Shown piece by piece: positions 25,740 through 29,803 of a stretch of DNA of 64,000 nt. The DNA is from Nakamurella sp. A5-74. GTDB taxonomy: Bacteria > Actinomycetota > Actinomycetes > Mycobacteriales > Nakamurellaceae. Each line of letters opens with the position of its first letter. Within the stretch, counting starts at the first letter, position 1. The stretch lies in the NCBI RefSeq assembly GCF_040438885.1, contig NZ_CP159218.1, positions 868,001 to 932,000 on the forward strand, given 5' to 3'. Position numbers and translations under genes: made by a program. Below the pieces are notes generated by a model. It ran no database searches. It saw only the letters and a list, made by a program, of their open reading frames with translations, and was not told where the DNA came from.

Positions 25740-26993
25740 ATGACGGGCACCGCTTCCACGACTTTCGACTTCCGCCCTCGGACCCGGCTCCCCGACACCC
25801 ATGGCCGGACCGGCGTCATCAGGACGCCGCACGGTGAGATCCGCACGCCGGCCTTCATCGCAGTGGGTACCAAGGCGACCGTCAAAGCTGTCACCCCGGA
25901 ACAGATCGACGAGGCCGGCGCCCAGGCTGTGCTCGCCAATGCCTATCACCTCTATCTGCAGCCGGGGCCCGACATCGTCGATGCCGCAGGTGGTCTGGGC
26001 CGTTTCATGGGCTGGCCGGGACCGACGTTCACCGACTCCGGCGGGTTCCAGGTGATGAGCCTGGGCGTCGGTTTCAAGAAGGTGCTGGCGATGAACACCG
26101 AGGGCGTCCGATCCGACGAGGTGATCGCGCCGGGGAAGACCAGGATGGCGGCCGTCGACGAGGAGGGTGTCACGTTCACCTCGTTCATCGACGGGAGCAG
26201 GCATCGCTTCACCCCCGAGGCGTCGATGCAGATCCAGCACCAGCTCGGGGCGGACATCATCTTCGCCTTCGACGAGCTGACGACGCTGATGAACACCCGC
26301 GAGTACCAGGAGGCGTCGGTCGAGCGGACCCGCCGGTGGGCCCAGCGCTGCCTCGACGAGCACCATCGGCAGACCCTGGCGCGGGCGGGCAAGCCGCAGC
26401 AAGCCTTGTTCGGGGTCGTCCAAGGTGCCCAGTACGAGGACCTGCGCCGCTCCGCCGTGCGCGGTCTGCTGGAGTTGCACGGTCCTGACGGCCGCGGGTT
26501 CGACGGCTACGGCATCGGCGGGGCGTTGGAGAAGGAGAACCTGGGCACGATCGTGGGCTGGTGCTCGCAGGAGTTGCCACCGGACAAGCCCCGTCACCTG
26601 CTGGGCATTTCCGAGCCGGACGACATCGTGGTGGCGATCGCGGCCGGCGCCGACACCTTCGACTGTGTATCGCCGTCACGGGTCGCCCGCAACGGTGCGA
26701 TCTACTCCCGCGGCGGGCGCTACAACGTCACCGCGGCGCGCTTCAAGCGCGACTTCTCACCCCTCGACGAGGGCTGCGACTGCTACACCTGCGGCCAGTA
26801 CACGCGCGCGTACCTGCACCACCTGTTCAAGGCCAGGGAGCGGCTGTTCGCCACGCTGTGCACGATTCACAACGAACGGTTCATCATCCGGTTGGTGGAC
26901 GACCTGCGGCAGGCGATCGAGGACGGCATGTTCGCCGAGGTCTCCGGCCGCTTCCTGGACGACTACTACGCGGGGTCGCGCGCCACTCCCTGA
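25740..26993 (+). CDS. tgt: tRNA-guanine transglycosylase
   Basis: The 417-residue enzyme exchanges guanine 34 of GUN-anticodon tRNAs for a queuosine precursor. It has DSGGFQ with Asp99, FDEL, and FDCVSPSR with the nucleophilic Asp308. The zinc site is complete: Cys346, Cys348, Cys351 and His377 in the C-x-C-x2-C-x25-H pattern. Bacterial Tgt normally takes preQ1; some take queuine. I chose ATG 25740; the larger open frame upstream is not part of the protein. It overlaps the convergent transporter gene by 28 bases. No preQ1 synthesis gene (queC, queD, queE, queF) is in the window, which hints at salvage. Confidence 0.93.
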
Positions 26994-27736
26994 TCGCGGC
27001 TGCCGAGATCCCCGGCAGGCAGCTGGGCTGCGATCGCAGCCTGGTAGCTGGGTTCGCGCTTCTTGATGAACGCGATGACCCGATAGGTGATGGGCAGCAG
27101 GATGATCTCGACGCCGACCTTGAGGGCGAAGCCCAGCACGGTGTAGTTGACCAGGTCGCCGAACTTCTCGATCCCGATGGCCGGGCCGGCGATCGAGCAG
27201 AAGATCAGCGTGTCGAAGAACTCGCCGACGAGGGTCGAGCTCACCAGACGCAGCCAGAGCTTGCGCTCACCTCCGCGCTGCTTCAGCTTCACCATCACGT
27301 AGGAGTTGAGGAACTCACCGATCAGGTAGCCGCAGACGCTGGCGAACACGATCCGCGGGACGACCCCGAGCACCGCATCGAACGCGGCCTGCGAGCCGTA
27401 CCCGGGTGCCGGGGTGGCCTTGCTCACGACGTAGAACGTCAACGACGCCAGCAGCGACATCGCGAAGCCGATCAGGATGGCCCGCCTGGTCGCACGCAGA
27501 CCGTAGACCTCGCTGAGCACGTCACCGATGACGTAGGTCAGCGGGAACAGGAAGACACCGCCGTCCGACAGTACGAAACCGAACGAGATCCCCTTGGTGG
27601 CAGCGATGTTGGACAGCAGCAGCAGACAGCAGAAGACCGACACCAGGACCGGGTAGTACCCGGGGCCGGTATGCGCGAAGACGGCGGCCCGCTGCGGTGG
27701 TGCGTCGGCAGGTCCGGGCTTCTGGGGTCTGGTCAC
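26966..27736 (-). CDS. yhhQ: YhhQ-family queuosine precursor transporter
   Basis: The 256-residue membrane protein belongs to the COG1738/YhhQ family: [57 protein letters not shown] and [16 protein letters not shown]. About six hydrophobic segments are visible. Characterised members import queuosine precursors such as preQ0. Its partner tgt lies convergently and the two coding ends overlap by 28 bases, so their expression may be linked by antisense transcription. The start could be a little downstream of ATG 27736 but the N-terminal extension is plausible. Confidence 0.88.
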
Positions 27737-27862
27737 CGGGAGATTGTGCCACTGCCGGAGGACGCGGATGTCCGACTGGCACTCGGACGGTCTTGTCTGC
27801 CAGCACGATCCTGCGGATCATCCTCCCGATCACCATGAGGTGACACCCCGTGAGGAGGAGCC

Positions 27863-28390
27863 GTGGACGAGACGACACCGTCGGTCGAAGTGGCTCCGTT
27901 GCAGAGTGGCAGCGGACTGGCAGGTTTCCTGTTGTTGGGACGGTGGCCGAAGGACCCCGTCGAGTGGGCGAAATTGTTGGTGCTGTCCGTCCGGATCGCC
28001 GCCGTCCCCGGGCTGCTCAGGGTGAGCACGGTGTTCGCGGTGCTGGACGACCTGCCCGACGACCCGCACCCCGGGGCAGTGGGACTGATCGCCGCAGCTG
28101 GTCCGCTGATCGGTGAGAACGCCGTGGTTCCAGGACAATTCGCCCATCCGCATCCCTCGGCGATCGTCATCCTCCATCCGCCGAACAGCACCATCTCCTC
28201 GGTGCCCGAGTACGAGACCGCATCCGGCTGCGTGCTGCTGCCGGGTCTGCCGCATCTCGGACTCGACCACCGCGCCGCCTGGGTGGAGGCGGACGTGCAC
28301 GGCACGGTGACCCAGATGATCTCCAAGTCGGGTGTCGATCCGTTCCAGAACCCCGATACTGCAGCGCTGGCAACGTTTCTCGCTGCCTGA
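27863..28390 (+). CDS. Hypothetical protein
   Basis: The 175-residue product starts at GTG 27863 with GAGGAG a few bases upstream. I do not recognise a family. The middle is hydrophobic and proline-rich (AAVPGLLRVSTVFAVLDDLP, GENAVVPGQFAHPHPSAIVILHPPNSTI) without a clear membrane helix or signal peptide. Amphipathic VOC-like or beta-rich folds are possible but unsupported. Good ribosome binding site and codon bias argue that it is real. Confidence 0.55.
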   Translation: MDETTPSVEVAPLQSGSGLAGFLLLGRWPKDPVEWAKLLVLSVRIAAVPGLLRVSTVFAVLDDLPDDPHPGAVGLIAAAGPLIGENAVVPGQFAHPHPSAIVILHPPNSTISSVPEYETASGCVLLPGLPHLGLDHRAAWVEADVHGTVTQMISKSGVDPFQNPDTAALATFLAA

Positions 28391-28440
28391 GCAGGAATGG
28401 GGATCTCGACTCCCTCGTCGCTCGATCTCCGGAACCGACC
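28391..28440. repeat. Degenerate extragenic repeat
   Basis: The sequence around 28398-28436 (GGATCTCGACTC ... CTCGATCTCCGG) resembles the reverse complement of the repeats at 45219-45380, with a short internal deletion. It fills the gap between two convergent genes. This supports a dispersed extragenic repeat family in the genome. Confidence 0.4.
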
Positions 28441-28465
28441 CGATCAGCGAACATCCGGTCCGGGA

Positions 28466-28864
28466 TCAGGTGAACAGGCAGAACGGGTGGCCGGCCGGAT
28501 CGAACATCACCCGGATGTCGTCCTGAGGTTGCACGGGGGCCTCCCGAGCGCCGCACTCGATGGCCCAGGCAGAAGCGGCCGGGAGATCGTCGACGTGCAG
28601 ATCGAGATGCTGGGTGGAGTGCTGGGTCCCGGACGTCGCCGGCCACACCGGAGGAGCCCACGCACGTTCCCACTCGACGTTGATGGTCATGGCGCCCGCC
28701 TGCAGCTGGGCCCACCCCGCCTCCGGCGGATCCCCTGGCCGGGCCGGCTCGGAGTCACGCACGGTGGCGCCCAGCAGCGTTGCGTAGAAGGCGGCGAGCG
28801 CGCGTGGATCGGGAGCCATGATCGTGATCGAGGTGGCCCGGATCGCCGGGCGGGAGTCCGTCAT
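28466..28864 (-). CDS. VOC family (glyoxalase-like) protein
   Basis: The 132-residue protein has one vicinal-oxygen-chelate module pair: ITIMAPDPRALAAFYATLLG at the start, then HLDLHVDDLPAASAWAIECG and RVMFDPAGHPFCLF at the end. The latter gives the usual C-terminal beta strand. Many such proteins are dioxygenases, lyases or resistance proteins; no substrate can be inferred. I chose ATG 28864 (MTDSRPAIRATS). Confidence 0.8.
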   Translation of the reverse strand: MTDSRPAIRATSITIMAPDPRALAAFYATLLGATVRDSEPARPGDPPEAGWAQLQAGAMTINVEWERAWAPPVWPATSGTQHSTQHLDLHVDDLPAASAWAIECGAREAPVQPQDDIRVMFDPAGHPFCLFT

Positions 28865-28915
28865 CGTCCGAGACTGGCACTGCTCGGACATCCACGCCAG
28901 CCCGGACCGCTGGGG

Positions 28916-29803
28916 TCAGCCTGTCCACGTCCACGGGGCACGGGGGATGCCTGCCGGGTCGAAGCGGCGCTCCAGGGCCGGCATCGACACCGGTTCCCCG
29001 GGTTCGGCGAGGTCCAGCGACACGGCCAACAGCGACAGCACATCGTCCGCGCTGACGCCGTCGGAGGCCAGCTCGGCCAGGGTGACGGCGCCGTCCCGCT
29101 TGGCCAGCCGGGCGCCCGACGGACCCAGTACCAGCGGGACGTGGACGTACTGCGGCACCGGCAGTCCCAGCAGCCCGGCCAGGTACGCCTGCCTCGGGGT
29201 GGACGGCAGCAGGTCGTCGCCGCGCACCACCTGGTCGACGCCCTGGGCGTCGTCGTCGACGACCACCGCCAAGTTGTAGGCCGGGATGCCGTCCGTCCGG
29301 CGCAGAACGAAATCGTCCACCTGACCGGTGTACGGGCCGGTCAGCAGATCGGTGACGGTCAGGTCCGCCACTTCGCTGCGCAGCCGCAACGCCGCCGGCC
29401 GGGCAGCGGTACGTTCGGCGCGCTCGGCCGCGGTCAGGTTCCGGCACGTCCCCGGGTAGGCGCCGGGCGGGGCATGGGGCGCGCTGGCCGCTTCCTGGAT
29501 CTCCCGCCGCGTACAGAAGCACTCGTAGACCCGGCGATCGGCGATCAGCCCGGCCAGCGCGGCGTCGTACAGCGGGCGTCGCTCGGACTGCCGGACCAGC
29601 TCGTCCCAGACGATCCCGATCGCACGCAGATCCGCCAACTGCCGCTCCTGTGCGCCCGGCCGCACCCGGTCGAGGTCCTCGACCCGCAGCAGGAAGCGGT
29701 GCCCGGAGCTGCGGGCGAACAGCTGTGCCAGCACGGCCGTTCGCAGATTGCCCAGATGCAGATCACCCGAGGGACTGGGGGCGTACCGACCGGCGCCGAC
29801 CAC
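28916..29803 (-). CDS. gluQ: Glutamyl-Q tRNA(Asp) synthetase
   Basis: The 295-residue protein is a truncated glutamyl-tRNA synthetase lacking the anticodon-binding domain. It has the HIGH-equivalent APSPSGDLHLGN near the N-terminus, a zinc site formed by CFC and YPGTC, and the KMSKS-equivalent LAKRDG. Known reaction: attachment of glutamate to queuosine 34 of tRNA(Asp). Its length and missing C-terminal domain distinguish it from gltX. It begins at GTG 29803. Proximity to tgt and yhhQ (within 4 kb) supports an active queuosine pathway. Confidence 0.9.
   Translation of the reverse strand: MVGAGRYAPSPSGDLHLGNLRTAVLAQLFARSSGHRFLLRVEDLDRVRPGAQERQLADLRAIGIVWDELVRQSERRPLYDAALAGLIADRRVYECFCTRREIQEAASAPHAPPGAYPGTCRNLTAAERAERTAARPAALRLRSEVADLTVTDLLTGPYTGQVDDFVLRRTDGIPAYNLAVVVDDDAQGVDQVVRGDDLLPSTPRQAYLAGLLGLPVPQYVHVPLVLGPSGARLAKRDGAVTLAELASDGVSADDVLSLLAVSLDLAEPGEPVSMPALERRFDPAGIPRAPWTWTG

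Follow-up and report, generated by a model that had tools for sequence, protein, structure and literature searches.

QueA and then QueG or QueH complete queuosine (Q) on preQ1-bearing tRNA (PMC11130926), and glutamyl-queuosine on tRNA(Asp) is formed by GluQ (PMC3542578). Transporters of the YhhQ (QPTR) family take preQ0 and preQ1 as substrates in Escherichia coli, and that of Chlamydia trachomatis takes queuine (PMC11570991). Queuine salvage has been predicted for most gut Actinomycetota, many salvagers having no known transporter (PMC11130926), and a variant with tgt alone, termed 'Aq', has been described in 297 gut genomes (PMC6593275). The present analysis concerns three genes of Nakamurella sp. 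A5-74, namely tgt (for tRNA-guanine transglycosylase), yhhQ and gluQ, which lie together in a stretch of 64,000 nucleotides (the window; bases 868001–932000 of contig NZ_CP159218.1). The trio probably serves direct queuine salvage ending in glutamyl-queuosine, by way of YhhQ, a queuine-accepting Tgt and GluQ.

The closest described system is direct queuine salvage in C. trachomatis, which, like the window, pairs Tgt with a transporter of the YhhQ family in the absence of QueA, QueG and QueH; the window differs in having GluQ and in the Tgt substrate loop, which is GGALEK instead of GG[LS][AS]G (PMC11570991). The gut Actinomycetota and the Aq variant share the same gene pattern without QueA and QueG/QueH, but GluQ, which is used here, was not used in those predictions, and 'gluq' occurs 0 times in the former article (PMC11130926; PMC6593275). 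Bartonella henselae, a case of preQ1-only salvage, likewise has tgt and a QPTR transporter without queA, queG and queH, but its Tgt retains GGLAVG, whereas the window has GGALEK and GluQ (PMC11570991). In E. coli, which has full de novo synthesis, the proteins of the trio are homologous, with motifs common to both; there, queA lies directly upstream of tgt and gluQ adjoins dksA, whereas the genome of the window has no QueA match and carries gluQ close to tgt. Nakamurella is not obligately intracellular, unlike C. trachomatis, and the genus does not consist of gut organisms, unlike the gut Actinomycetota and Aq cases.

The locus is thus mostly known in kind: queuine salvage has already been predicted for this group, and the Tgt of Nakamurella multipartita has already been modelled (PMC11570991). 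No description of the trio as a queuine-to-glutamyl-queuosine unit in actinobacteria was found in titles and abstract openings of the open-licence literature. What is added is modest, comprising the GluQ argument, a variant of the Tgt pocket and a link to a published gene list of rapidly growing mycobacteria. An organism with no steps other than import, insertion and glutamylation would rely on queuine from other organisms, and would offer a clean setting, without a preQ1 step, for the role of glutamyl-queuosine and for base selection by Tgt.

Family identity and missing synthesis enzymes

A sequence-only reading of the window had placed a complete tgt together with yhhQ and gluQ here; open frames were found for all three, and all three products exceed curated family cut-offs, with Pfam matches to TGT, Vut_1 and tRNA-synt_1c, respectively. 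Tgt, a tRNA-guanine(34) transglycosylase of 417 aa (25740–26993, + strand), scores 414.9 bits against TIGR00430 of NCBIfam (cut-off 306.75). It shares 164 identical residues with E. coli Tgt over 364 aligned positions, and the two align at DSGGFQ, FDE, VQG, FDCV and the zinc motif CDCYTC...H; the positions of the catalytic aspartates and zinc ligands of bacterial Tgt are kept. YhhQ (26966–27736, − strand; 256 aa), a predicted importer of a queuosine precursor, most likely queuine, scores 117.2 bits against TIGR00697 (cut-off 50.95) and 168.2 bits against Vut_1 (PF02592); with the model of the E. coli-type transporter, NF008406, it reaches 59.4 bits, short of the 252-bit cut-off. GluQ, a glutamyl-Q tRNA(Asp) synthetase of 295 aa (28916–29803, − strand), exceeds the cut-offs of NF004315 (318.6 bits; cut-off 250) and TIGR03838 (292.0 bits; cut-off 276.7), shares 111 identical residues with E. 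coli GluQ over 272 aligned positions, and keeps SPSGxLHxG and the cysteine motif CxC...Y...C. As is characteristic of the GluQ family, it stops at the catalytic domain and has no anticodon-binding domain.

The genome containing the window is a single contig of 4,748,569 bases (98% complete). Profile searches gave zero matches in it for QueA, QueG, QueH and QueC, QueD, QueE and QueF not having been searched; of 14 control genomes, 9 gave matches to the QueA family model. The sequence-only reading had named a complete de novo pathway at another locus as a finding that would overturn it; this is thereby excluded as regards the four enzymes searched, and the gene content is not that of de novo synthesis. 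It also does not correspond to indirect queuine salvage through QueK and QueL, as in Clostridioides difficile, since QueA, QueG and QueH are without match (QueK and QueL were not searched). With tgt present and QueA and QueG/QueH without match, it has the composition of direct queuine salvage of the Chlamydia type.

The same holds across the order, in a sample of 150 genomes. Tgt exceeds the cut-off in 35 of these, and QueA, QueG and QueH exceed theirs in none of the 35; no QueA-like match at all is found in 32, and partial QueG matches of 49–52 bits (cut-off 200) occur in five, the window's genome not being among them. Matches to the QueC model were obtained in 17 of 24 other genomes at no more than 26.8 bits, 12 of them over the 22-bit cut-off. 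They are mostly about 57 residues long, lie in frames of 473–1093 aa, and were rejected as QueC, a different kind of ATP-pyrophosphatase being the preferred reading; no such match occurs in the genome of the window.

Weak QueA-like matches, none above 160 bits (cut-off 267), are seen in 47 of the 150 order genomes, 44 of which have no Tgt over the cut-off; they include L009 and L010. Perhaps these proteins are a QueA paralogue with another role.

In the absence of QueA and QueG/QueH, queuine is the only salvaged base that would give Q by known enzymes, and because GluQ acts on queuosine, a kept GluQ implies Q. Inserted preQ1 cannot become Q by known enzymes and GluQ needs Q; therefore, direct queuine salvage is the best reading of the trio. 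YhhQ would import queuine, Tgt with a remodelled pocket would exchange guanine 34 for queuine in GUN-anticodon tRNAs, giving Q in one step, and GluQ would then attach glutamate to Q34 of tRNA(Asp). The imported compound, the Tgt substrate and the modification in the cell are predictions from sequence. Glutamyl-queuosine on tRNA(Asp) may fairly be inferred from the presence of GluQ, and uptake of queuine by YhhQ is suggested by analogy with characterized transporters. Uptake of a precursor had been predicted earlier without naming one; salvage is supported by the missing QueA, QueG, QueH and QueC matches, and the precursor is now sharpened to queuine, preQ0 and preQ1 being unlikely. The GluQ argument, the change in the Tgt pocket and the co-inheritance of the genes agree with one another.

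The substrate pocket of Tgt

In the alignment with E. coli Tgt, the substrate loop GGLAVGE is replaced by GGALEKE (residues 260–266; 26517–26537, + strand), three residues shorter. The preQ1-type loop, GGLAVG-like with a valine, is thus not present. Every one of the 35 order-sample Tgts has a GGA.[ET]K loop, as does each of the 80 Tgts from named relatives (Mycolicibacterium, Rhodococcus, Nocardia, Propionibacteriaceae and others).

A sample of 396 genomes of the phylum relates this loop to queA. With Tgt and QueA called at E 1e-60 or better, Tgt is present in 239 genomes, QueA in 205 and both in 204, leaving 35 with Tgt and no QueA. Sixty Tgts were read, 30 being the top-scoring ones and 30 coming from a chosen list; 18 of the 48 genomes on that list, all queA-bearing, gave no locus and are outside the loop counts. 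VGE is kept in all 43 Tgts from queA-bearing genomes and lost in 16 of the 17 from genomes without queA, three of these being of the GGA type and 13 of a GG[ST]LG type. The single queA-less Tgt that retains VGE comes from a genome that is 81% complete.

The second feature is an insertion of 25 residues (residues 110–134; 26067–26141, + strand) after the DSGGFQ strand, seen in the E. coli alignment and in the spacing across 175 Tgts. Of the 115 Tgts from the order sample and the named relatives, 114 have a spacer of 36 or 37 residues after this strand; it has 30–35 residues in 13 of 16 other queA-less Tgts, and 9–13 in 30 of 43 queA-bearing ones, the remainder being Tgts that the search pattern failed to capture. 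A quick tree of 57 Tgts, with E. coli as the root, places the GGA and GG[ST]LG types from queA-less genomes in one clade each (support 100), and the two clades join at support 89 with long stems.

These results bear on whether Q might be made from preQ1 by enzymes unrelated to QueA and QueG/QueH. QueH is an unrelated replacement of QueG, so replacements do occur, and the weak QueA-like matches in the order are compatible with a further one. However, the window's genome offers no QueA candidate, nor do 32 of the 35 tgt-bearing order genomes, and the pocket is without the VGE kept by all 43 Tgts read from queA-bearing genomes; such a route is very unlikely. Another possibility is that the base inserted by Tgt is a 7-deazaguanine other than preQ1 and queuine, so that the cluster makes another wobble modification. 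The GGALEK loop and the insertion are indeed unlike both published pocket types, but Q-tRNA(Asp) is the known substrate of GluQ and no gene of the cluster suggests another base, which makes this alternative highly improbable. Direct queuine salvage is consistent with the loss of VGE as well as with the presence of GluQ.

A separate observation concerns the zinc site. The Tgts of L042, L043 and L044 (G074, G081 and G135; one genus) have no CxCxxC zinc cysteines, showing LDNYS-T and similar sequences in place of CDCYTC; the remainder of Tgt is conserved and gluQ is still nearby.

Inheritance of the trio and competing readings

The genomes of the order sample are related, and co-occurrence counts in it are not independent events: YhhQ exceeds the cut-off in 31 genomes, all within the 35 bearing tgt, and GluQ is present in 34 of these 35 (32 over the cut-off and two just under it, at 274 and 271 versus 276.7 bits). 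Among the other 115 genomes, none has Tgt, YhhQ or GluQ over the cut-off; weak YhhQ matches occur in three, a weak two-piece Tgt match (44 and 26 bits) in one, and matches to the GluQ model reach at most 224 bits and look like ordinary glutamyl-tRNA synthetases. Within the genus of the window, 17 genomes including that of the window have tgt in 17, yhhQ in 13 and gluQ in 16.

The genes also recur near one another. GluQ is encoded in the same stretch as tgt in 31 of 34 order stretches, and YhhQ in 20; for the 80 named relatives, with at most 5 kb on each side and several stretches stopping close to tgt, the counts are 36 for yhhQ, 35 for gluQ and 25 for both. When the open reading frames (ORFs) of window positions 18000–38000 were sought in nine Nakamurella stretches (E 1e-12), tgt and gluQ recurred in all nine and yhhQ in five, with no others; the four without a recurring yhhQ come from genomes without YhhQ. 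The trio is a recurrent arrangement. The compact cluster of the sequence-only reading is confirmed; a Glyoxalase_6 gene between yhhQ and gluQ was missing from that reading.

For the phylum sample, GluQ was called from bit score and frame length, giving 91 genomes (86 of 396 by the curated cut-off). It is present in 24 of the 35 tgt-bearing genomes without queA versus 64 of the 204 with queA and tgt. Three genomes outside the Tgt list have GluQ: G357, which later showed a Tgt, and two with a completeness of 77% and 79%. Among the 11 tgt-bearing genomes with neither queA nor GluQ, eight are 74–91% complete.

The pattern of GluQ also bears on a reading in which salvage of preQ1 (or preQ0) halts at preQ1-tRNA, with GluQ acting elsewhere or being a relic. 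There are precedents without queA and queG/queH, proposed for B. henselae (PMC11570991) and suggested for Bifidobacterium breve (PMC11130926), and E. coli YhhQ transports preQ0 and preQ1 (PMC11570991). However, GluQ is retained in nearly all tgt-bearing order genomes (34 of 35) and absent from the 115 others, and the preQ1-type loop of the Bartonella Tgt (PMC11570991) is not that of the window; a halt at preQ1-tRNA is unlikely.

Several observations nevertheless weigh against direct queuine salvage. The queuine-type loop is typically GG[LS][AS]G (PMC11570991), a motif that the GGALE loop does not match exactly, and preQ1 insertion has been suggested for B. breve, which likewise has no queA (PMC11130926). 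Because the tree puts the queA-less types in two joined clades, the association between loop and queA reflects one or two evolutionary events. QueA-like matches below the cut-off are present in three of the 35 tgt-bearing order genomes (G041, G101 and G129), not including the window's. In the phylum, three genomes that are 96–97% complete (G403, G414 and G502) have tgt with neither queA nor, by a reading of scores, GluQ. Within the genus, GluQ is missing from L028 (G094), where tgt adjoins yhhQ and which would be a natural case of Q without glutamyl-queuosine. Also, four of the 17 genus genomes have tgt and gluQ 71–117 bases apart but no YhhQ match (L021, L023, L024 and L027, from G108, G003, G122 and G019, respectively).

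The four congeners without YhhQ may use a different importer or may have lost import; if they salvage too, another importer would be needed. By Pfam, no transporter is encoded near tgt–gluQ in L023 and L027 among the nine ORFs recurring in at least one other of ten compared sequences, to which this check was limited. These are for prephenate dehydrogenase (two), oxidoreductase (two), a helicase, a deaminase, an aldo/keto reductase and two products without a Pfam match. L021 and L024 hold little sequence beyond tgt and gluQ.

A published list of 40 genes present in >98% of rapid-growing and 0% of slow-growing mycobacteria includes MSMEG_0437 (yhhQ), MSMEG_6306 (COG0008) and MSMEG_6313 (Tgt); the word queuosine is absent from that article (PMC6985099). 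From its family and a locus number close to that of tgt, we infer that MSMEG_6306 is GluQ. The trio would then give a common reading for three genes of that list (PMC6985099). There is an even chance that the wider picture holds, in which the Tgts of Mycobacteriales and their relatives form a separate queuine-specific lineage whose pocket accommodates queuine through loss of VGE (GGALEK) together with the 25-residue insertion, not through GG[LS][AS]G. In that picture, these free-living actinobacteria would scavenge queuine from others and convert it to glutamyl-queuosine on tRNA, and the slow-growing mycobacteria would be marked by having lost all three genes.

Gene arrangement and flanking features

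The start of tgt is an ATG at 25740, in a reading frame open already from 24843. tgt and yhhQ are convergent; yhhQ is preceded on its own strand by the glyoxalase-like gene and, further upstream, by gluQ. The coordinates bear out the earlier report that tgt and yhhQ, on opposite strands, overlap by 28 bases at their 3' ends (26966–26993). Such an overlap is ordinary, since 14 of 51 convergent pairs in related loci, with at least two genomes counted twice, overlap by 4 to 44 bases.

The glyoxalase-like gene (28466–28891, − strand; Glyoxalase_6, Pfam 75.0 bits) is probably a passenger. It was rejected as a pathway member, since just two of 34 related stretches hold a counterpart, in both cases a weak one (55 and 58 bits). 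A + strand gene at 27863–28390, between yhhQ and the glyoxalase-like gene, is without a Pfam match and was not counted.

In an Rfam search of 18000–38000, neither a preQ1 riboswitch nor any further RNA family reached the gathering score near the trio. The sole match is a bacterial small SRP RNA at 32223–32319 (− strand; RF00169, 69.1 bits). Promoter-like sites were not found in 25300–30200 with a consensus that is a poor guide for high-GC actinobacteria. Just upstream of gluQ are a tRNA-Ser (GGA) at 29884–29973 (− strand) and then a terminator-like hairpin (29882–29853). A DUF6328 membrane protein is encoded at about 25134–25620 (− strand), divergent from tgt, and an open frame of 1950 aa at 32466–38318 (+ strand) resembles, by eye alone, a secreted amylase or pullulanase.

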